From the NCBI GenBank assembly GCA_017473555.1, contig JAFUKO010000068.1, positions 28,883-92,882 of the forward strand: a DNA stretch of 64,000 bases, in the 5' to 3' direction. Below the pieces are notes generated by a model. That model did not search any database, was not told the DNA's origin, and saw nothing but the letters and a program-made list of their open reading frames with translations. Below, in pieces: positions 8,970 through 58,204 of this stretch. The position numbers and the translations under genes are program-made. Every line of letters begins with the position of its first letter. Position 1 is the stretch's first letter. The stretch is from Ruminococcus sp. (GTDB taxonomy: Bacteria > Bacillota > Clostridia > Oscillospirales > Acutalibacteraceae).

Positions 8970-10385
8970 ATGAAAAAGATATTATGTTTAGCGCTCAGTT
9001 TTATTATGATAGTTTCTCTTGCAACATCGTTTAGTGCGAGTGTTACTATGAATAAATCTTTAGACGCAAGTAGTGATGAGGCGTCTAAAGATAGTACCAT
9101 TCCAGAGGGATATACAGAGACAGGTTCTTGCGGTAAGAACGCTTTTTGGTATTACTATGACGATACAAAAACTCTCATAATCAGCGGTGAGGGCAAGGTC
9201 GAAAGACCTGACTTCTACAAACCAACCTTTGATTATCATGGGTTGCCTTTTGAAAAAGCCATCATTGAAGAGGGTATAACAGAGCTTGGCAGTTATGCTT
9301 TTTCAAAATGCGAGTTTTTAAAGGAAGTTTCGCTTCCTGACAGCCTTACGAGAATTGAGGATTCTATATTTGGGTATTGTAAGAGTTTGAAAAGTATTAC
9401 TATTCCCAAAAATGTCAGTTATTGGGGTATGAATAACTTTTACTATTGTGAATCTCTTGAAGAAATCATAGTTGACCCTGAGAATACTACTTTCGATAGC
9501 AGAGATAACTGTAACGGTGTTGTGGTTACTCAAACAAATATGTTAAGATATGCTTGCAAAAACACAACAATTCCTGAGAGTGTTACAAGTATTGGATCAA
9601 TGACATATTGCGGTGTAATGGGTGTGACAGAAATTACAATACCTGATAACGTTACAAGTATATATGGTCAGGCTTTTCAAGAATGTGTTGACCTTGAAAC
9701 AGTCAAGTTGCATCCTAATGTTAACTTATATCCTTCAGGTATATTCAGTAAGTGTAAAAAACTGAAAAACGTTTATCTTCCTTCTGGTATAACAGAGATT
9801 GGTATGCAGGAATTCAGCGAATGTACAAGTCTTGAGAGTATTGTAATACCTGCAAGCGTTAAGTGGATTAATCAATCTGCTTTTCTTAATTGTACATCTC
9901 TTAAATCGGTTACCATTGAAAACGGAGTTAAAGCTTTAGGCCCGGGTGCTTTTACCGGATGTACAAGTCTGGAAGAGGTTGTTCTGCCAAAGTCTGTAGA
10001 TACAATCCAGATAGCGACATTTAAAGATTGTGCAGCTATGAAAAGTGTGACTGTGTATAATCCGGAGTGCGAGATTGGTGATATGGACATAACATTTCCA
10101 GCGAACGCTGTCATCTACGGATATGAAGGCTCTACAGCACAGCAATATGCTGAAAAATATGCAAGAGAGTTTATCGCTTTACCTGAGCCAGAGTATGCTA
10201 TCGGCGATGTAGATTTAGACGGCGATGTTTCAATCATGGATGCAACAGAAATCCAGATGGTTGAAGCACGACTCAAAGAATGGAAATCTGAAAACTGTGA
10301 GGCACTGGGCGACGTTGATAACGACGGTGAAGTATCTGTGCTCGACGCTACCGAAATACAGCTTATCATTGCAGGACTGGCCTAA
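8970..10385 (+). CDS. Secreted BspA-type leucine-rich repeat protein with C-terminal dockerin
   Basis: A 471-residue protein with a signal peptide (1 to about 24). Residues about 85-385 hold repeated BspA/LRR_5 units of the type 'FSKCTSLESIVIPASV' (alternating cysteine-bearing 'C.SL..I.IP..V' lines), a fold used for binding polysaccharides, host or surface proteins. The C terminus (about 400-471) is a dockerin with two calcium F-hands, 'DVDLDGDVSIMDATEIQ' and 'DVDNDGEVSVLDATEIQ', which should bind a cohesin. No catalytic domain is present. AAAAAGGAG precedes the ATG. It is a single-gene unit with its own promoter and terminator. A binding or adhesion component of a cohesin-dockerin assembly is the most likely role. 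Confidence 0.88.
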   Translation: MKKILCLALSFIMIVSLATSFSASVTMNKSLDASSDEASKDSTIPEGYTETGSCGKNAFWYYYDDTKTLIISGEGKVERPDFYKPTFDYHGLPFEKAIIEEGITELGSYAFSKCEFLKEVSLPDSLTRIEDSIFGYCKSLKSITIPKNVSYWGMNNFYYCESLEEIIVDPENTTFDSRDNCNGVVVTQTNMLRYACKNTTIPESVTSIGSMTYCGVMGVTEITIPDNVTSIYGQAFQECVDLETVKLHPNVNLYPSGIFSKCKKLKNVYLPSGITEIGMQEFSECTSLESIVIPASVKWINQSAFLNCTSLKSVTIENGVKALGPGAFTGCTSLEEVVLPKSVDTIQIATFKDCAAMKSVTVYNPECEIGDMDITFPANAVIYGYEGSTAQQYAEKYAREFIALPEPEYAIGDVDLDGDVSIMDATEIQMVEARLKEWKSENCEALGDVDNDGEVSVLDATEIQLIIAGLA

Positions 10386-12370: not shown

Positions 12371-12408
12371 TACATTGGTAGCTATATTAACATTTTAAGG
12401 AGGTTAAT

Positions 12409-15400
12409 ATGAAGAAGTTATTATCAATAATTCTCTCAATAGTTATGGTATTAAGTGTTATGCCATATACTGTTTTTGCTGAGGAAGTCAGCAGCCTGTC
12501 CTATGAATTTACAGGCATAAACGCTGATGACCCGGGCTACGCAGAGGGTACTATCACCTTTAATGCAGGCTCAGCAGCAACCTATTATATGTATTGGGGC
12601 GACGATGAAAAGGCTCTCCCACAGTATTTTGAGATTACATCATTTACTGTTCAAAAGGGCGATTCAGTCACATACAAATTCCCTGCACAGACAGCTATAC
12701 CTGCTGATGCAGAATGCGTATTTATATCTAAAATGAAGTCGTGTGAAAACGCATACGTAAGCGAAGGTATCGCAAAATTTGACCTTCCTGACAACAAAAA
12801 GCTTGTTGATTCTTCCGATGAGCGTCAGTACAGATATGCGGCCCTTTCTGATATTCACATCGATATGCAGCACGGCACAAAAGCCGGTTACTACACATAC
12901 GCAGTAGATCACTGGAAGCAGACACTCGACGTTTGTGTTGACAGAAATGTTGATTTTATCATTTCAGCAGGTGACCAGGTTACAAATGCTTATGGTGCTA
13001 CCCTTGAGTGGCTTACATATCAGCAGGTGCTTTCGGAGTCTGATTACGTTAACCCTATTTATGAAGCTGACGGTAACCACGAGCCACGAGGTAGTTATAA
13101 CAGTGATTGCGATGTTGCTTGTAGCAACGAAGAATACGCTATCGGCACTGGTCTTGATAAAGACGCTCAGTCAATCGTTGACGGCAAAGACTACTACGAA
13201 GTAACAGAGCCTAACACAGGTGACCACTTTATCTTTATGAGCGAGGTTCACGCTCATCCGGGCGAGAATGATAACTTCTCAACCGAGCAGCTTGATTGGC
13301 TTGAGGGCTTGCTCGCAAAGTATAAGGGCGACGGCAAGAAGGTTTTCCTTATCCAGCACGCACTTTTACAGGGTTATGGCGCAGGTGACGATGTCTATGA
13401 TCCGGGCTATCAGGGCGGTATCAGAATGCAGCACGCTGAAACAGGTGAGCAGTTCCCTAACAACCAGCGATTCAAGCAGATTATCGAAGCTAACAAGGAT
13501 ATTATCTGGTACTCAGGTCACACACATATAGATTTCAGAGAAGAGCAGAACTATAGTAGCGAGAATGGTACCTCTTGCCATATGGTACATATTCCGTCTG
13601 CTTGTAATACAACAAGCTACGTTAAAGATGCTAACGGATATAAAGTGCCTGGTTCTTCAACAGACTATACATTCTACGATGATGCAACACAAGGCTACTT
13701 TGTAGATGTATATGAAGATGCAACTATCCTTTACGGAACAAATCTTCACTACAACAAGGTTTACCCAAGATACACATATATTATCGAAGAGGGCGAGCCA
13801 GAAACAAGACCTACAGAAACACCAACACAAAGACCTACATCTCCACCACCTACACAGCCTGATATTGCTGATGGCAAGACAGTTTACTGCGTAAATTCAG
13901 CTAACTGGGCTGAGGTTTACGTTCATTCCTGGGTTGATGGCAGTACAGGTACAACATGGCCAGGTTATGCTATGACTAAAACAGGCGAGCAGGCTAATGG
14001 TTTTGATGTTTACAAAGCAGTTGTAGAGCCTGGTTATACAAACGTTATTTTCAACAATAACAACAAAGGCTCACAGACCTCTGACCTGACAATTCAGGAG
14101 GGACAGTATTTTGACGTAAGATCAGGCAAGTGGTACGCATCATTAGATGATATCCCTGAGGTTGGTGCACTTGCTACTGATCGCTTCCTTGTTGGTTCAT
14201 TCAACAACTGGAGTACAGTGGCAAACGAGTTTATGCTCAAAGCTGAGGGCGATTTGACAGCTTACGTTACTATGACTCTTGAAGCTAATACAACCTATGA
14301 ATTCAAGGTAGTAAGAGAAGGTAAATGGACAAGTAACACAACACCTATCACAGGTGATGTAGAAGAACTTGTATTTTCATCTTCTGTTAACGATAATGCA
14401 ACAATCACAACAACTTACGCAGGCGAATATGAGTTCTCTTTTGGTATCAGCAGCTCAAGATTAGCAGTAAAATATCCAACACAGGCTCCAACACAGCCTC
14501 CTACAGAGGAGCCAACAGAGGAGCCGACAGAAGAGCCAACAGAGGAGCCGACAGAAGAGCCAACTGAAGAGCCGACTGAAGAGCCTACTGAGGAACCAAC
14601 TGAGGAACCTACAGAGGAGCCTACTGAAGAACCTACAGAGAAACCTACCGAAGAGAAAGTTTTATACGGTGACTCTGATTTAGATAAGTCTGTTACAATT
14701 ATGGACGCAACATTTATCCAGCTCTATCTGGCACAGAAAGAAGATTTTAGCGATAAACAGTTAAAGTGTGCTGATGTTGATGGTGAGGGTATTACGATTA
14801 TGGACGCTACTCTCATTCAGCTTTATCTTGCACAGGCAATTGATAAATTCCCTATTGAAGAAAAAGCAGTCGCAACAGTAGGTTCCAAAAAATCTGTTGC
14901 AGGCACTTCTGCTGATGTTTTAACAAGCGAGGAGCTTTTCACAAAGGCTACTGACTATCTGTCATATTACTTCCAGTATGCATCATACGATACATATCAG
15001 GCACTCAAAAAGACAGTATATGCATATAAAGATACTGATACTACAGCTCTTACAGCCTCAGCTCAGGCAGAGCTAACAGATGCTATTGCCGCTTTTGATG
15101 CACTCAGAGAAAAGGTGCACCAGCAGACAGTTTACTACACAGACGGCAAGGCATTCAGTGGTATCAGAGCATATTACTTCAACAGTAAAACTAATGCAAA
15201 GGTTGAGGACTGGCCTGGTCAGATTGGTTCATACATCCGCACAAACTCCTATGGACAGAACATCTACGCCGTAACATTAAACTTCTCTAAGTTTGATACT
15301 ATCATATTCAGCGGCGGTAGCAACAAAACTGTAGATATAACTCTCGACGGATGTTCAGGAAAACTCTACTATCCGACAGAGCAGGATGCTACAACAGGCG

Positions 15401-15774
15401 AATGGGCAGTTGCAGAAACAACCTTCAAACAGATGTGGTACGGCGAGAAACAGGACGAGATAGGTGATGACGTGCTCGAAGATATCACTGTTTACTTCAC
15501 CGATACCTTAGGTTGGAGTGCTGTCAACTGTTATTATTGGCTTGGTTCTGCAAACAACACATGGCCTGGCGAGAAAATGGAGTTTGTCAGAAACAACTCT
15601 CAGGGACAGCCTATCTATAAGATTACTCTCCCTGCTGGTGCATCAGCGGTATTTAATAACGGCTCAGGTACACAGAGCGTTGATGTCACAGGACTCGCAC
15701 ATGGATACGGATACTACCTCACAACCCAGTCAGGCGGAAAATACCTCTATGACACATACAAATACGGAGAGTAA
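12409..15774 (+). CDS. Secreted metallophosphoesterase with starch-binding-like modules and an internal dockerin
   Basis: A 1121-residue multimodular protein. A signal peptide (1-24) precedes a beta-rich region (25-140), then a calcineurin-type phosphoesterase (about 141-455) with metal ligands D148/H150 ('SDIHID'), D189 ('AGDQ'), N223-H224 ('GNHE'), H317, and H371/H373 ('GHTHID'). A Pro/Thr linker leads to a CBM26-like module (489-580, W500, W508, 'WPG' at 517), a second beta-sandwich like the CBM48/X25 fold (590-688, 'FLVGSFNNW'), a 50-residue PTEE repeat linker, a dockerin (752-815), a helical segment (about 835-905), and two more CBM26-like modules (907-1010 and 1024-1121). The substrate is inferred: phosphate esters on starch or another polysaccharide. 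AAGGAGG precedes the ATG. A small gene follows 10 bases later. CBM assignments are by eye. Confidence 0.85.
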   Translation: MKKLLSIILSIVMVLSVMPYTVFAEEVSSLSYEFTGINADDPGYAEGTITFNAGSAATYYMYWGDDEKALPQYFEITSFTVQKGDSVTYKFPAQTAIPADAECVFISKMKSCENAYVSEGIAKFDLPDNKKLVDSSDERQYRYAALSDIHIDMQHGTKAGYYTYAVDHWKQTLDVCVDRNVDFIISAGDQVTNAYGATLEWLTYQQVLSESDYVNPIYEADGNHEPRGSYNSDCDVACSNEEYAIGTGLDKDAQSIVDGKDYYEVTEPNTGDHFIFMSEVHAHPGENDNFSTEQLDWLEGLLAKYKGDGKKVFLIQHALLQGYGAGDDVYDPGYQGGIRMQHAETGEQFPNNQRFKQIIEANKDIIWYSGHTHIDFREEQNYSSENGTSCHMVHIPSACNTTSYVKDANGYKVPGSSTDYTFYDDATQGYFVDVYEDATILYGTNLHYNKVYPRYTYIIEEGEPETRPTETPTQRPTSPPPTQPDIADGKTVYCVNSANWAEVYVHSWVDGSTGTTWPGYAMTKTGEQANGFDVYKAVVEPGYTNVIFNNNNKGSQTSDLTIQEGQYFDVRSGKWYASLDDIPEVGALATDRFLVGSFNNWSTVANEFMLKAEGDLTAYVTMTLEANTTYEFKVVREGKWTSNTTPITGDVEELVFSSSVNDNATITTTYAGEYEFSFGISSSRLAVKYPTQAPTQPPTEEPTEEPTEEPTEEPTEEPTEEPTEEPTEEPTEEPTEEPTEEPTEKPTEEKVLYGDSDLDKSVTIMDATFIQLYLAQKEDFSDKQLKCADVDGEGITIMDATLIQLYLAQAIDKFPIEEKAVATVGSKKSVAGTSADVLTSEELFTKATDYLSYYFQYASYDTYQALKKTVYAYKDTDTTALTASAQAELTDAIAAFDALREKVHQQTVYYTDGKAFSGIRAYYFNSKTNAKVEDWPGQIGSYIRTNSYGQNIYAVTLNFSKFDTIIFSGGSNKTVDITLDGCSGKLYYPTEQDATTGEWAVAETTFKQMWYGEKQDEIGDDVLEDITVYFTDTLGWSAVNCYYWLGSANNTWPGEKMEFVRNNSQGQPIYKITLPAGASAVFNNGSGTQSVDVTGLAHGYGYYLTTQSGGKYLYDTYKYGE
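14500..14655 (+). repeat. In-frame tandem repeat encoding the PTEE linker
   Basis: About twelve copies of a 12-base unit encoding Pro-Thr-Glu-Glu, with third-position changes between copies (CCA/CCG/CCT, ACA/ACT). It is an extended acidic linker between the second binding module and the dockerin, and its copy number is likely to vary between strains. Confidence 0.9.
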
Positions 15775-18460: not shown

Positions 18461-19879
18461 TTAACCTTGTATTTCCCAAGTGATTCCGTCTTTTGAGTCT
18501 TTTACTACAACGTGCATTGCAGCAAGCTCGTCACGGATAGCGTCAGCAGTAGCCCAGTCTTTGTTAGCTCTGGCTTCCTGACGTTTAGCAATAAGCTCTT
18601 CGATTTTAGCAGTATCGACATCTGAGTTTTTCTGTTCATTTTCAGCCTTGACTTTGTTTGCTTCTTCAATAAGACCTAGGCTTAACACCTTGTCAAAATC
18701 AGCGATGAGATAGAGCTTTGTAGCGTCATTTGTCTTAGCTTTCAATACATCGTAAAGACTTGTAAGACCTAAAGATGTATTAAGGTCATTATCCATATTT
18801 TCTTTGAACTTTGCGATGTACTCGTTTGCTACAGCCATATCTACCTCACCATCATCTTTGAGGTTAGCGATACGGTTTACGAGTTTATTGTATGCTGTAA
18901 CTGTGTTGTCGAGGATATCAAAGTCAAACATCAGAGGCTTTCTGTAGTGTGACTGTAAACAGAACATTCTGTAAGCCAGCGGATTGTAGCCTTTTTCTTC
19001 AAGTAATGATACTGTTAAGAACTCGCCCTTTGATTTGCTCATCTTACCACGTCTGTCGAGAAGGTGGAGTACATGGAACCAGTGCTTACACCACTCATGA
19101 CCAAGGTATGCTTCTGACTGGGCGATTTCATTTGTATGATGTGGGAAAGCGTTGTCAACACCACCGCAGTGAATGTCACAATACTCGCCTAAGTGCTTGA
19201 TTGAAATTGAGCTACATTCGATGTGCCAGCCCGGATAGCCGATGCCCCAAGGTGAATCCCACTTTAATTCCTGATCATCAAACTTGGATTTTGTGAACCA
19301 GAGTACAAAGTCTGTTTTATTCTTCTTAGCGAGATCTTCTTCGACGTCATCTCTTACACCGACTTCGAGGTCTTCTTCTTTCTGATTACCGAAAACATAG
19401 TATTTATCAAGCTTTGATGTGTCAAAATATACGTTACCACCGCTGATATATGCGTACTCTTTTTCAAGTAATACGGATACCATTTCAATGAACTCATCAA
19501 TACAATTTGTAGCAGGCTCTACTACATCAGGGGTTTTGATGTTGAGCTTTTTGCAGTCTTCAAAGAAAGCGTCTGTATAGAATTTTGCGATCTCAAGAAC
19601 AGTTTTCTTTTCGCGCTTTGCACCTTTGAGCATCTTGTCTTCACCTGTGTCAGCGTCAGAAGACAGATGTCCTACATCGGTGATGTTCATAACTCGTGTC
19701 ACATCATAACCGCTGTATCTTAGATATTTTTCAAGTACGTCTTCCATAATGTATGTGCGAAGATTACCGATGTGCGCGTAATGGTAAACAGTAGGTCCAC
19801 AGGTGTACATTCTGACCTTGTTACCCTCAAATGGGACAAATTCCTGTTTTTCGTTTCCTAGTGTGTTATAGAGAATCAT
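18461..19879 (-). CDS. cysS: Cysteinyl-tRNA synthetase
   Basis: A 472-residue class I aminoacyl-tRNA synthetase that charges tRNA-Cys. The HIGH-type motif is 'YAHIGN', the KMSKS motif is 'KMSKSKG', and zinc ligands are seen in 'YTCGPTVY', 'WHIECSS' and 'FPHHTNE'. The C-terminal helical and anticodon-binding regions are complete. The start overlaps the cysE stop by 4 bases (ATGA), showing translational coupling. The unit is controlled by a T-box leader. Confidence 0.97.
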   Translation of the reverse strand: MILYNTLGNEKQEFVPFEGNKVRMYTCGPTVYHYAHIGNLRTYIMEDVLEKYLRYSGYDVTRVMNITDVGHLSSDADTGEDKMLKGAKREKKTVLEIAKFYTDAFFEDCKKLNIKTPDVVEPATNCIDEFIEMVSVLLEKEYAYISGGNVYFDTSKLDKYYVFGNQKEEDLEVGVRDDVEEDLAKKNKTDFVLWFTKSKFDDQELKWDSPWGIGYPGWHIECSSISIKHLGEYCDIHCGGVDNAFPHHTNEIAQSEAYLGHEWCKHWFHVLHLLDRRGKMSKSKGEFLTVSLLEEKGYNPLAYRMFCLQSHYRKPLMFDFDILDNTVTAYNKLVNRIANLKDDGEVDMAVANEYIAKFKENMDNDLNTSLGLTSLYDVLKAKTNDATKLYLIADFDKVLSLGLIEEANKVKAENEQKNSDVDTAKIEELIAKRQEARANKDWATADAIRDELAAMHVVVKDSKDGITWEIQG

Positions 19880-20505
19880 TGTAATTCCTCCAGTTTCTTT
19901 TTAAGTTCGTTGATTTGAATCTGCATTTTGCACAGCTCCTGTGCTACCGGATCTGAGTAATGTATCTGGTCGAGATAGTCGAGTTTCTCACCGTTGATTT
20001 TTACAACTCGTGCAGGTACACCGACAGCGGTTGCGTTGTCCGGGACTTCTCCGAGCACCACAGCACCTGCGGCAATTCTAGCGTTATCACCGACCCTGAA
20101 TGGTCCCAAGACCTTTGCTCCTGAACCGACAAGTACGTTGTTGCCGAGAGTAGGGTGACGCTTGCCGTGTTCTTTACCAGTACCGCCAAGTGTGACATTC
20201 TGATAAAGAGTACAGTTGTCGCCGATGATTGTAGTTTCACCGATAACAACACCCATACCGTGGTCAATGAAAAGACCTTTGCCTATTGTGGCACCGGGGT
20301 GAATTTCGACACCAGTTTTGTGTCTGCTACGCTGTGAAATCCATCGGGCAATAAACTTCATATTATGATTGTAAAACCAGTGAGCACGTCTGTAAGACCT
20401 CACCGCCTTGTAGCCGGAATACAGGAAGAAAACTTCCATCTTACTCCTTGCGGCTGGGTCACGCTCCATAACGGAGTTTAAATCCGCTATTAAAGTTTTG
20501 AACAT
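19876..20505 (-). CDS. cysE: Serine O-acetyltransferase
   Basis: A 209-residue enzyme making O-acetylserine from serine and acetyl-CoA, the first step of cysteine synthesis. It has an N-terminal helical domain and a left-handed beta-helix of hexapeptide repeats; the family hallmark 'GVVIGETTIIGDNCTLYQNVTLGGTG' region lies at about 80-105, followed by 'HGKRHPTLGNNV'. A short C-terminal coiled coil ('LCKMQIQINELKKKLEEL') follows. It is first in the T-box-cysE-cysS operon. Confidence 0.96.
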   Translation of the reverse strand: MFKTLIADLNSVMERDPAARSKMEVFFLYSGYKAVRSYRRAHWFYNHNMKFIARWISQRSRHKTGVEIHPGATIGKGLFIDHGMGVVIGETTIIGDNCTLYQNVTLGGTGKEHGKRHPTLGNNVLVGSGAKVLGPFRVGDNARIAAGAVVLGEVPDNATAVGVPARVVKINGEKLDYLDQIHYSDPVAQELCKMQIQINELKKKLEELQ

Positions 20506-20559: not shown

Positions 20560-20815
20560 ACAAAAAATGCGTCATCCCAAAAGGGACGACGCAGTCGTGG
20601 TTCCACCCAAATTCAGCCGATGCATCATAAAACGAGTCAGCATCAACCCTTTGTGCTTTGTAACGGAAGCTTCCGTGTGAAGATACTTAGTTTCCCCTCA
20701 CAAGCTCACAGGTGCATTTCGTAAAAACTAGACCAAAGGGAATTTCAGCATACATCCCTCTCTCTGATGGCTTTGTTTAAAGTACTTCTCCTGATCAACG
20801 CCTTTTTATATTACT
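20560..20815 (-). ncRNA. T-box leader (cysteine-specific) of cysE-cysS
   Basis: The minus strand carries the T-box core GGGTGGAACCACGA (20595-20608), which forms the antiterminator bulge that binds the tRNA NCCA end, then an intrinsic terminator (20568-20578 with 20583-20593) and a U-run (20562-20567). Upstream, within the expected Stem I, the sequence GAAATGCACC gives a specifier codon UGC (Cys) at 20714-20716. Uncharged tRNA-Cys would stabilise the antiterminator and allow expression of cysE-cysS. This stretch of about 345 bases otherwise has no gene. Confidence 0.92.
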
Positions 20816-40588: not shown

Positions 40589-40761
40589 GAGGTGGTTGTA
40601 ATGCACAAAAAACAATAAATATTTTCAGTCAATATAGCAGTTGTATTATGGTTCAACGAGTTGTAGAATATAATTGTAAGAACAAGACCGATGAATTGGT
40701 TTTTATAAAACCGAGTCGGTAGTATTTGTCCTGTGTATATTTTTTAGAGAGGAATGATTTT

Positions 40762-42024
40762 ATGAAAAAGGTTATTTCTATTATTTTATTCTTGGTTATA
40801 GCTTTAAATGTTGCGGGTTTATCGGTGTCTGCACAAACAGCGGAAATCTCTGACAGCTTGTTGTCTGCTATAAGAGTTGAGTATTCTGACCAGGAACTAG
40901 TAAAGGATGATATCTCGGTTAGATTTATGAAAGAGCTGTCACACGATAAATATATTCTTAAATACACCGTGAGCAACTATGCTTATACTTGCGATGTAGT
41001 AGATATTTATGTCGGTGATTACCACATTACGTCAGCTCGTCCGTTACCTGTTATCTTTATGGATGGTACACTTTACGATATCGAAGATGCATATGACAAT
41101 GGGTTGCTCAGTGAGTCTGACTTGCGTACAATGTCAGAGTTTGAAGAGCTCAATATGGTGAAAACAGTCATCACTGAGGAGCTTATGTACGCTATGGCTT
41201 ATTACGCAAATGATGATTATATCAATATCCGTTTTGAGGTGCAGGGTTTTGATAAAACAATAGCTGATATTGATGGCTGGGTTGATGATATACGCGGAGC
41301 GGTGGCTAAGCTTAATGAACACTATGAAAGCTTGCATCAGAAATTACTCAAGGACGTGCTGGATGATATTGAGTACAAAGATCAGGTACATAACAATGGT
41401 GTGAGTGTGGTTGCTGTTAAGAAGAGTGATATCGAAAAGCTGTCGCACAATGAGTTTGTTTTACAGATGGACTATATATCTGAAGTGCATCTTAAGTATA
41501 TTGAGCAATTTGATGCCCGATTTAAGGAATACACTTATGAAGAAAAATGTCGTGAAACAGATGGCGACGGAGAGTTTTCTTATTGGCTGATAAATGCACA
41601 CAACAATATGGGTAGCAGTGCGGTAGTTGGATTCCGTTTTGGTGACCATATTGTCAGAAGTGGAGCGATTTACGGTAATTTTACATACGGATATGGTATT
41701 TATGATATAAAGGAAGAAAAGTTCTATGATGTCTATGATTTGAGAGATTGTGTAGACAAATACTATAGACTTGAAGATCACCTTGCATTTTATAGCAGAG
41801 CAGTACAGGTCGGTGACAGTGATGGTGATCGTAACGTTACAGTTTTGGATGCCACAAAAATTCAGAGATTTATTGCAAAACTTGATTATTTGTGGGATGA
41901 TGCATACACTTCTCATGAGAATAAGAAGACAGTTTATGTTTCTGATGTAGATTATGATGGAAAGATTTCTGTTTTAGATGCAACAGCTATTCAGCTTAAA
42001 CTTGCAAAGTATGATTCATTTTAA
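40762..42024 (+). CDS. Secreted dockerin protein with a duplicated domain of unknown function
   Basis: A 420-residue protein with a signal peptide (1-24). Two segments look duplicated: 'IYVGDYHITSA' to 'LYDIEDAYDNG' near 85-120 and 'FRFGDHIVRSG' to 'FYDVYDLRDC' near 290-335. I do not recognise the domain and see no catalytic motif. The C-terminal dockerin has F-hands 'DSDGDRNVTVLDATKIQ' and 'DVDYDGKISVLDATAIQ', separated by an unusually long linker. The ATG at 40762 has AGAGAGGA upstream; an earlier in-frame ATG would precede the signal peptide. The gene stands alone between two terminators. Confidence 0.8.
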   Translation: MKKVISIILFLVIALNVAGLSVSAQTAEISDSLLSAIRVEYSDQELVKDDISVRFMKELSHDKYILKYTVSNYAYTCDVVDIYVGDYHITSARPLPVIFMDGTLYDIEDAYDNGLLSESDLRTMSEFEELNMVKTVITEELMYAMAYYANDDYINIRFEVQGFDKTIADIDGWVDDIRGAVAKLNEHYESLHQKLLKDVLDDIEYKDQVHNNGVSVVAVKKSDIEKLSHNEFVLQMDYISEVHLKYIEQFDARFKEYTYEEKCRETDGDGEFSYWLINAHNNMGSSAVVGFRFGDHIVRSGAIYGNFTYGYGIYDIKEEKFYDVYDLRDCVDKYYRLEDHLAFYSRAVQVGDSDGDRNVTVLDATKIQRFIAKLDYLWDDAYTSHENKKTVYVSDVDYDGKISVLDATAIQLKLAKYDSF

Positions 42025-56554: not shown

Positions 56555-56609
56555 TTTGTATGCATTTTCTGTTACAGTATGAATGGAAAATATATGGGAG
56601 GATGATTCT

Positions 56610-57182
56610 ATGAAAAAAGTGTTTTCTGTTTTGTTAGCATTGATGCTGATGTTGTCGTGTGTTATTAACGCTGGTGCGATTCCTGCTCCGTGCTATTATG
56701 GTGATGCTAATGCTAACGGTGAGTCTAATGTGATGGATGTTACCTTTATACAGGAAGTTCTGGTTAAATTGAATACGATGTCTGCTTTACAGAATAAGTT
56801 AGCTGATGTTAATGCAGACGGAAACCTGAGCGTGTTTGATGCAACACTTATTCAACTTAAGTTAGCTAAGTGTATAAGTGAATATCCTGCCGGCAAGGAA
56901 GTTTATGTCTATATGCTTTTAGGTGGTTTTGAGACGGATAAAGAATCCGGTTTGGCTACTGTGAACGAGCCTGTCACCTTTACTGTTTTTCCGGACGGCA
57001 AGTGTGAACCATTCTACTTTGACTATTATGTAAATGGTGAGTTGATAATTGATGATTCTCAGGAGACATCGTTTACATATTCATTTGATGAAGCAGGCAG
57101 TTATAGAATACAGGCTACTGCTACAAATTCTGTGGGCGTTTCATCTGTTGTTTCAATGGACTTTGAAGTAGTTGAAGCCTGA
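56610..57182 (+). CDS. Secreted protein with N-terminal dockerin and Ig-like C terminus
   Basis: A 190-residue protein. A signal peptide (1-23) is directly followed by a dockerin (about 28-90; 'DANANGESNVMDVTFIQ' and 'DVNADGNLSVFDATLIQ'), and then a beta-sandwich like a PKD/Ig-type fold (about 95-190; 'FTVFPDGKCEPFYFDYYVNG', 'YSFDEAGSYRIQATATN'). Most dockerins are C-terminal; here it is N-terminal. No enzyme motif is visible. The ATG at 56610 has GGAGG 10 bases upstream. It is paralogous to the next gene. Confidence 0.82.
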   Translation: MKKVFSVLLALMLMLSCVINAGAIPAPCYYGDANANGESNVMDVTFIQEVLVKLNTMSALQNKLADVNADGNLSVFDATLIQLKLAKCISEYPAGKEVYVYMLLGGFETDKESGLATVNEPVTFTVFPDGKCEPFYFDYYVNGELIIDDSQETSFTYSFDEAGSYRIQATATNSVGVSSVVSMDFEVVEA

Positions 57183-57286: not shown

Positions 57287-57316
57287 TGACCACTAAAAAG
57301 AATTTTGGTGAATATT

Positions 57317-58204
57317 ATGAAAAAAGTGATTTGTTTTCTGCTTTGTGCAGTAATTATGATGTCGTTTAGTGTTATGAGCACAAACGCTGCTATTGAGCCG
57401 ATTGCCTATGGTGACGCTGATGCCGACGGTGATGAAAATATTTTCGATGTTACGTTTGTACAGCTTTGCGTGGCTTTACTCGATGAAATGGATAAGTTGC
57501 AATTTGAGGTTTCCGATGTTGATGATAACGGAGAGATAACCATTATGGATGCGACTATGATTCAATGCCATAACGCTGAACTTATAGACAGCTACCCTGC
57601 GGGCGGATCGGTATCGCTTGATTTGGATATTCATAACTTCTACTGCAACTTAGGAGATGCTGTGCTGACGTCAAATGATTTAGCGACTTTTTATGCGGAT
57701 GTTTATAGTGGTGTAGGTGGACCGGTTACTTACAGCTTCTACATAAACAAAAGACTTGTACAAGTAACAAATGATTCGTATTTCAGCTACTATTTCAGAG
57801 AAGCCGGCGAATATGATATTAAAGTTGTTGCCGAAAACCATATAGGTATTGTTGAAGAAGCACATCTGAAAGTTCAAAGCATCGGAGAAGAAACTCACAC
57901 TGCACCAGAGATTGGAGTTTACTATACTAATCTGTATAAACGAGATCTGTGTGACCGTGCTGATGATGCAACAATTAACGTTATGGTTCTGGGTGCAGAT
58001 GAACCTTATGAGTATGCATTTGACCTTTATTATGGGGATAAATTGATAGCATCACAGATAATGTCCGAGGATAACACCTTTAAGTTGCATCCTGACAAAT
58101 TGAAGATTAAACACGAATATACCTTATATGTTGCGGTTAGTACAGGTGACTCAAATATCTACTTAAGAGATGTGCCTGTGCTCGTAAGATACACAAGAAT
58201 ATGA
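57317..58204 (+). CDS. Secreted protein with N-terminal dockerin and two beta-sandwich regions
   Basis: A 295-residue paralogue of the upstream gene. The signal peptide (1-25) is followed by a dockerin (about 31-95; 'DADADGDENIFDVTFVQ' and 'DVDDNGEITIMDATMIQ'), a beta-sandwich (about 100-195, with 'FREAGEYDIKVVAENHIG' equivalent to the Ig-like end of the first protein), and a further domain (200-295, 'YEYAFDLYYGDKLIA', 'LKIKHEYTLYVAV'). The ATG at 57317 has a weak GGTG upstream. No catalytic residues are evident. Confidence 0.8.
   Translation: MKKVICFLLCAVIMMSFSVMSTNAAIEPIAYGDADADGDENIFDVTFVQLCVALLDEMDKLQFEVSDVDDNGEITIMDATMIQCHNAELIDSYPAGGSVSLDLDIHNFYCNLGDAVLTSNDLATFYADVYSGVGGPVTYSFYINKRLVQVTNDSYFSYYFREAGEYDIKVVAENHIGIVEEAHLKVQSIGEETHTAPEIGVYYTNLYKRDLCDRADDATINVMVLGADEPYEYAFDLYYGDKLIASQIMSEDNTFKLHPDKLKIKHEYTLYVAVSTGDSNIYLRDVPVLVRYTRI

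Follow-up and report, generated by a model that had tools for sequence, protein, structure and literature searches.

The gene at positions 12409 to 15774 of the window, a stretch of 64,000 nucleotides from a gut bacterium, Ruminococcus sp. (assembly GCA_017473555.1, contig JAFUKO010000068.1, positions 28,883 to 92,882), encodes a multimodular protein of 1121 amino acids that is very probably a starch-tethered phosphoesterase. Its three CBM26 modules and one X25-type module would hold a secreted dimetal phosphoesterase on the starch granule, and its dockerin would bring the enzyme into an amylosome-like complex. There it would cut phosphate esters within the granule: the leading candidate substrates are the C6 and C3 monoesters of amylopectin glucose, and their removal would free phosphate and open blocked chain ends for the neighbouring GH13 enzymes. 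We infer activity and substrate from this architecture, and we rate the chance that a glucan phosphate monoester is the main substrate as a little short of even. The removal of starch phosphate is a plausible role, and not the sole one that the sequence allows. Sequence and model establish the modules, the metal site and the conservation of the family, the secretion signal having been recognised by eye; the gene is laid out as follows (HMM, hidden Markov model):

12398..12403, forward strand: AGGAGG ribosome-binding site, read from the sequence
12409..15774, forward strand: whole gene, multimodular protein of 1121 amino acids
12409..12480, forward strand: signal peptide, residues 1-24, by eye from the sequence
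12490..12798, forward strand: N-terminal beta domain, residues 28-130, with strands in the AlphaFold2 model, conserved together with the catalytic domain
12826..13794, forward strand: metallophosphoesterase catalytic domain, residues 140-462, from alignments, model and Foldseek, and from Pfam on P0002
13882..14088, forward strand: CBM26 module 1, residues 492-560
14173..14478, forward strand: X25/CBM48-like beta sandwich, residues 589-690
14479..14655, forward strand: PT/TEEP repeat linker, residues 691-749 (Pfam PF04886)
14665..14829, forward strand: internal type I dockerin, residues 753-807, from the Pfam profile and inspection of the calcium loops
14926..15117, forward strand: residues about 840-903, conserved domain containing a YxSYDxYxxLKK-like motif, helical by guess
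15130..15339, forward strand: CBM26 module 2, residues 908-977, from family-built HMMs and the WPG motif
15490..15687, forward strand: CBM26 module 3, residues 1028-1093, from Pfam, family-built HMMs and the WPG motif

The first-pass annotation had recognised a secreted calcineurin-type phosphoesterase with a full set of metal ligands, and this is borne out by the conserved motifs and by an AlphaFold2 model of the catalytic domain with a predicted local distance difference test score (pLDDT) of 95. The fold and five metal or catalytic motifs place the domain in the calcineurin-like metallophosphoesterase superfamily, and a Foldseek comparison with the Protein Data Bank gave GpdQ, purple acid phosphatases and their kin as the best matches. 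The predicted ligand set is complete (D148, H150, D189, N223, H317, H371 and H373) and is accompanied by a catalytic-type histidine, H224; these roles we presume by analogy. Seven ligand and catalytic positions (D148, D189, N223, H224, H317, H371 and H373) do not vary in 172 listed proteins, i. e. the union, window protein included, of the best 120 each from a whole-protein search (337 proteins, some of which may share merely binding modules or dockerin) and a catalytic-part search (266 relatives), and a later alignment of 171 proteins and 79 loci keeps them in each of its 250 rows. E219, E279, Q294, W297, D327, Y334, N381 and H394 are likewise invariant in the 172 proteins, and G43, A45, G47, W63, P98 and A101 of the N-terminal beta domain are conserved. 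Position 150 is His in 148 of these proteins and Gln in the other 24; a Gln at this ligand also occurs in ADPRibase-Mn, the family that includes 2nxf. Ten of the 24 Gln150 proteins, or their loci, are present in the tree of the family, where they form one clade with a Shimodaira-Hasegawa-like approximate likelihood-ratio (SH-aLRT) value of 100 (rows matched by eye). This clade includes a second copy in the same genome (G000:C61; L082 and L086; protein P0070), which bears CBM26 and also a dockerin-like stretch. A location of P0070 in the window was considered and rejected, since tblastn places it elsewhere and it has the sequence of the C61 copy. Pfam PF00149 is matched in 45 of 50 chosen family members, yet not in the window protein itself, and at E 0.001 no NCBIfam model covers the phosphoesterase protein.

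The catalytic fold spans monoesterases and diesterases, and both fold and ligand pattern of the domain are those of a GpdQ-type glycerophosphodiesterase. The window protein differs from GpdQ (2zo9), Rv0805 and the class III phosphodiesterases (16% identity) by an extra N-terminal beta domain, to which it adds a signal peptide, starch-binding modules and a dockerin. According to the part available of PMC8288039, phosphate monoesters are found on about 0.5% of the glucose residues of potato starch and might inhibit exo-acting hydrolases; for most cereal starches, the available part of PMC10178128 describes the phosphorus as primarily lysophospholipid complexed with amylose. Both kinds of starch phosphorus are conceivable substrates for this fold. 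A granule-tethered phosphodiesterase would act on starch phospholipids, mainly the lysophosphatidylcholine that resides in amylose helices and in channels of the granule, or on glycerophosphodiesters after deacylation; it would thereby remove a protective lipid from cereal starch and gain choline, glycerol and phosphate. The likeness to GpdQ is consistent with such a role, which we consider decidedly unlikely. As a further alternative, the enzyme would be a phosphomonoesterase or phytase for general phosphate scavenging, with starch modules that do no more than keep it close to plant material; its substrates would be phytate, nucleotides or seed phosphoproteins. Here, the purple acid phosphatases among the structural matches have to be set against two observations that make this alternative, too, an unlikely one. 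First, the recognised binding modules of the family are all alpha-glucan binders (CBM26, CBM41, AMPK/X25 type). Second, purple acid phosphatases and phytases carry a tyrosine ligand in a GDxxY motif as well as a DxG motif, whereas the window protein has GDQVT (G188-D189-Q-V-T) and a D-x-H motif (D148-I-H150), and so lacks these hallmarks.

If the window enzyme removes glucan phosphate, it would share this job with the eukaryotic glucan phosphatases SEX4, LSF2 and laforin. These are intracellular, Cys-based dual-specificity phosphatases, and SEX4, like laforin, joins its phosphatase to a carbohydrate-binding module. In contrast, the window enzyme has a secretion signal and, instead of a Cys dual-specificity domain, a metallophosphoesterase of unrelated, metal-dependent fold; no Cys-based glucan phosphatase is among the Foldseek matches listed for the catalytic model. 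In laforin, a dual-specificity phosphatase is joined to CBM20 (PMC9254107, available in part). The phosphoesterase family would be a convergent counterpart of glucan phosphatases such as laforin.

Starch targeting of many members of the family is well supported. In the window protein, CBM26 is matched by Pfam in three stretches with 100.3 bits (cut-off 28.1), each of them with a W-P-G motif, in agreement with the three modules annotated initially. The AlphaFold2 model supports the fold of two of the four sandwiches, with matches to Sas6, SusF and the X25 module of Sca5: CBM26 module 1, the only one of the three whose CBM26 fold is supported in this way, and the X25/CBM48-like sandwich. The claim of a CBM48/X25-like sandwich is therefore upheld by its fold, but not by the profiles, which gave 15.8 and 16.1 bits and remained below their cut-offs of 27 and 22.4. 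Presumably, these module copies bind starch in the window protein as well. Among the 50 chosen members, Pfam found CBM26 in 42, CBM41 (PF03714), another alpha-glucan binder, in six, an AMPK-type module in seven, and a dockerin in 32. HMMs derived from modules of the family itself assign either CBM26 (143) or CBM41 (29) to every one of the 172 listed proteins. The family is a conserved, large and apparently undescribed group of accessory enzymes of amylosome-type complexes, which probably acts on phosphate esters of starch granules. Where record titles name the sample, the best 80 of 214 loci come from the gut of goat, roe deer, sheep, dairy cattle, reindeer and red deer, and the title word "Lapin" among them suggests rabbit. 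The stretch of 60-65 residues with the YxSYDxYxxLKK-like motif has L851 and S859 invariant in all 50 aligned members, and it also occurs in forms lacking both CBM and dockerin (the three CBM-free forms L017, L018 and L022).

The genome (1.98 Mb in 137 contigs) has an amylosome-like inventory, as had been proposed for the setting of the gene. At E <= 0.001, there are 78 dockerin matches (three under the curated cut-off), 43 CBM26 matches (six under it), 18 GH13 matches (none under it) and seven cohesin matches (one under it), and no GH9 match. With its starch modules and its dockerin, and with cohesins and GH13 enzymes encoded in the same genome, the window protein has the make-up of an amylosome component. 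The dockerin reaches 26.0 bits with the type I profile (cut-off 22.9), its first calcium loop is canonical, and it would dock onto a cohesin of a scaffoldin as its putative partner. Its mean identity is 0.545 to the dockerins of CBM26 proteins (13 rows) and 0.471 to others (24 rows; p 0.007, or p 0.02 without partial rows), in a set of 39 of the 78 genome dockerin matches plus the one of the C61 copy, where the others are mostly high scorers and the L098 dockerin counts as non-CBM26 as its CBM26 sits on a different frame.

Sixteen CBM26-bearing frames, picked mostly for having no GH13 match, were scanned for catalytic domains. Domains of papain-like peptidases occur in two of them (E 1.4e-4 and 1.9e-4, barely above the cut-off), whereas an esterase (E 3.4e-19, with a dockerin below the Pfam cut-off), a CotH kinase-like domain (E 1.4e-21) and GH13 were found in one frame each. 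For the remaining 11, Pfam gave no catalytic domain at E 0.001, and one of these, L129, resembles the same papain-like peptidase by eye. L130, L132 and L128 (G000:C120, C11 and C62) combine CBM26 and dockerin with papain-like peptidases, a PF00756 esterase and the CotH-kinase-like protein. The CBM26 and dockerin proteins of this organism are thus a granule toolkit that is wider than amylases. The presence of a CotH kinase domain, CBM26 and a dockerin in one frame of 2462 amino acids (L128) would fit a housekeeping function, in which the phosphoesterase removes phosphate that this protein has set on extracellular proteins of the complex. We regard this as highly improbable: the link between the phosphoesterase and the CotH-like genes is presumed, as is CotH activity outside spores, and extracellular ATP would be needed.

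Several observations weigh against a docked enzyme that is dedicated to glucan phosphate. The top structural match of the catalytic domain is a phosphodiesterase. The second calcium loop of the dockerin is one residue short and thus non-canonical; by our own pattern, a canonical second loop is found in 58 of 167 family dockerins. CBM26 and dockerin are also attached in this genome to papain-like peptidases, an esterase and a CotH-like protein, and since they are shared by several chemistries, these modules mark granule tethering and do not name the substrate. Moreover, the catalytic core also occurs without starch targeting. A search with a short, CBM-free form gave 362 relatives, and CBM-free forms of about 550 amino acids are common; in the best 120 of the 362, the members without PF03714 show PF00149 or nothing. 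Of 81 loci (the best 80 of 214 and the C61 copy), 63 have a CBM26 or CBM41-type module according to the family-built HMMs, and 18 do not: three short frames (L006, L009 and L014), three with another C-terminus (L032, L033 and L042), and 12 CBM-free forms of 551-627 amino acids. In a tree of 78 rows, the CBM41 forms and four CBM-free forms make up a clade of nine, mostly from Lachnospiraceae (SH-aLRT 100), beside the CBM26 forms, and three further CBM-free rows fall elsewhere; because the tree is midpoint-rooted, the direction of change between these states is not proven. Among 60 congeneric genomes, our own included, all have CBM26 and 38 have the catalytic domain (G051 only at E 8e-5 across a short piece). 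The median CBM26 count is 24 with the enzyme and 16.5 without it (p 0.003), but after subtraction of two or three modules per enzyme match the excess is no longer significant (p 0.07 and 0.26), and co-occurrence with CBM26 was therefore rejected as support. Finally, the neighbours in the window are glycolysis genes, an LRR (leucine-rich repeat)-dockerin gene, luxS, a GH25 gene and an ECF (extracytoplasmic function) sigma factor gene, with no starch genes among them.

Close relatives also have two upstream open reading frames (ORFs) whose sizes are those of luxS and the GH25 gene, as judged by ORF size only. In eight of eight loci selected for a downstream ORF of at least 140 amino acids (L015, L017, L018, L028, L029, L034, L035 and L070), the next ORF of this length encodes a regulator of the AraC type that has a cupin sensor. 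The gene neighbourhood in the window and in the relatives, the AraC regulator included, is not informative on the substrate. The LRR protein (8970-10385, 471 amino acids, BspA-type) lies 2 kb upstream of the phosphoesterase gene and has a C-terminal dockerin of 20.1 bits, under the cut-off. Similarity to the phosphoesterase protein also revealed further dockerin-like stretches of the window at 40726-42024, 56583-57182 and 57305-58204. A T-box leader (20579-20807, reverse strand, 126.3 bits) lies upstream of the ORF 19876-20505, which is followed by cysteinyl-tRNA synthetase. A hairpin just 3' of the gene was rejected as it scores no better than shuffled sequences. Elsewhere in the genome, L085:2126-5695 (G000:C21) encodes a dockerin protein with two metallophosphoesterase domains and an fn3 match, in which no starch module was found; it adjoins two dockerin proteins that resemble CAP-domain proteins by eye. 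L087:2226-3332 (G000:C102) encodes a distant relative of the catalytic domain, a short separate protein of 368 amino acids, beside a collagen-like frame, phage-tail-like by eye; this hit was set aside.

The window protein shares CBM26 and X25-type modules with Amy16, Amy10, Sas6 and Sca5 of Ruminococcus bromii, and its internal dockerin is followed by CBM26 as in Amy16 (PMC5814915, Table 1, available in part); its catalytic domain, however, is a phosphoesterase and not GH13. In the available text of PMC5814915 and PMC9112005, which present the breakdown of resistant starch as the work of amylases, pullulanases, scaffoldins and binding proteins, a word search found neither "phosphatase" nor "phosphoesterase". 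The dockerin-borne accessories of R. flavefaciens (peptidases, LRR proteins and serpins) are likewise non-glycosidases docked to a scaffold; the part available of the survey (PMC2930009) mentions no starch modules for them, and a word search of it found no phosphatase, phosphoesterase or phosphodiesterase. The combination had been thought undescribed: relatives are already in public databases under labels such as "starch-binding protein" or "metallophosphoesterase", but among the literature matches listed (titles, beginnings of abstracts and term counts) there was no paper on a metallophosphoesterase joined with starch modules or a dockerin, which is weak evidence of absence, as most of these lists give a fraction of the matches (20 of 261 and 20 of 220, for example) and subscription journals are little covered. 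We know of no modification of starch by an enzyme of this fold.

It is tempting to speculate, and we do so tentatively, that bacteria possess extracellular, scaffold-docked starch phosphatases that are independent in origin from the glucan phosphatases of plants and animals, that gut Clostridia fuse them to CBM26, X25 or CBM41 modules, and that amylosomes thereby strip phosphate from resistant phosphorylated starch. If this is true, the family would provide a starch-modifying enzyme of a fold that is, to our knowledge, new to that use. A docked phosphoesterase beside peptidases and an esterase on the same tether would mean that amylosome-type complexes also handle granule phosphate, lipid and protein, and it makes testable how gut bacteria deal with phosphorylated starch, be it from potato or the chemically phosphorylated type 4 resistant starch.
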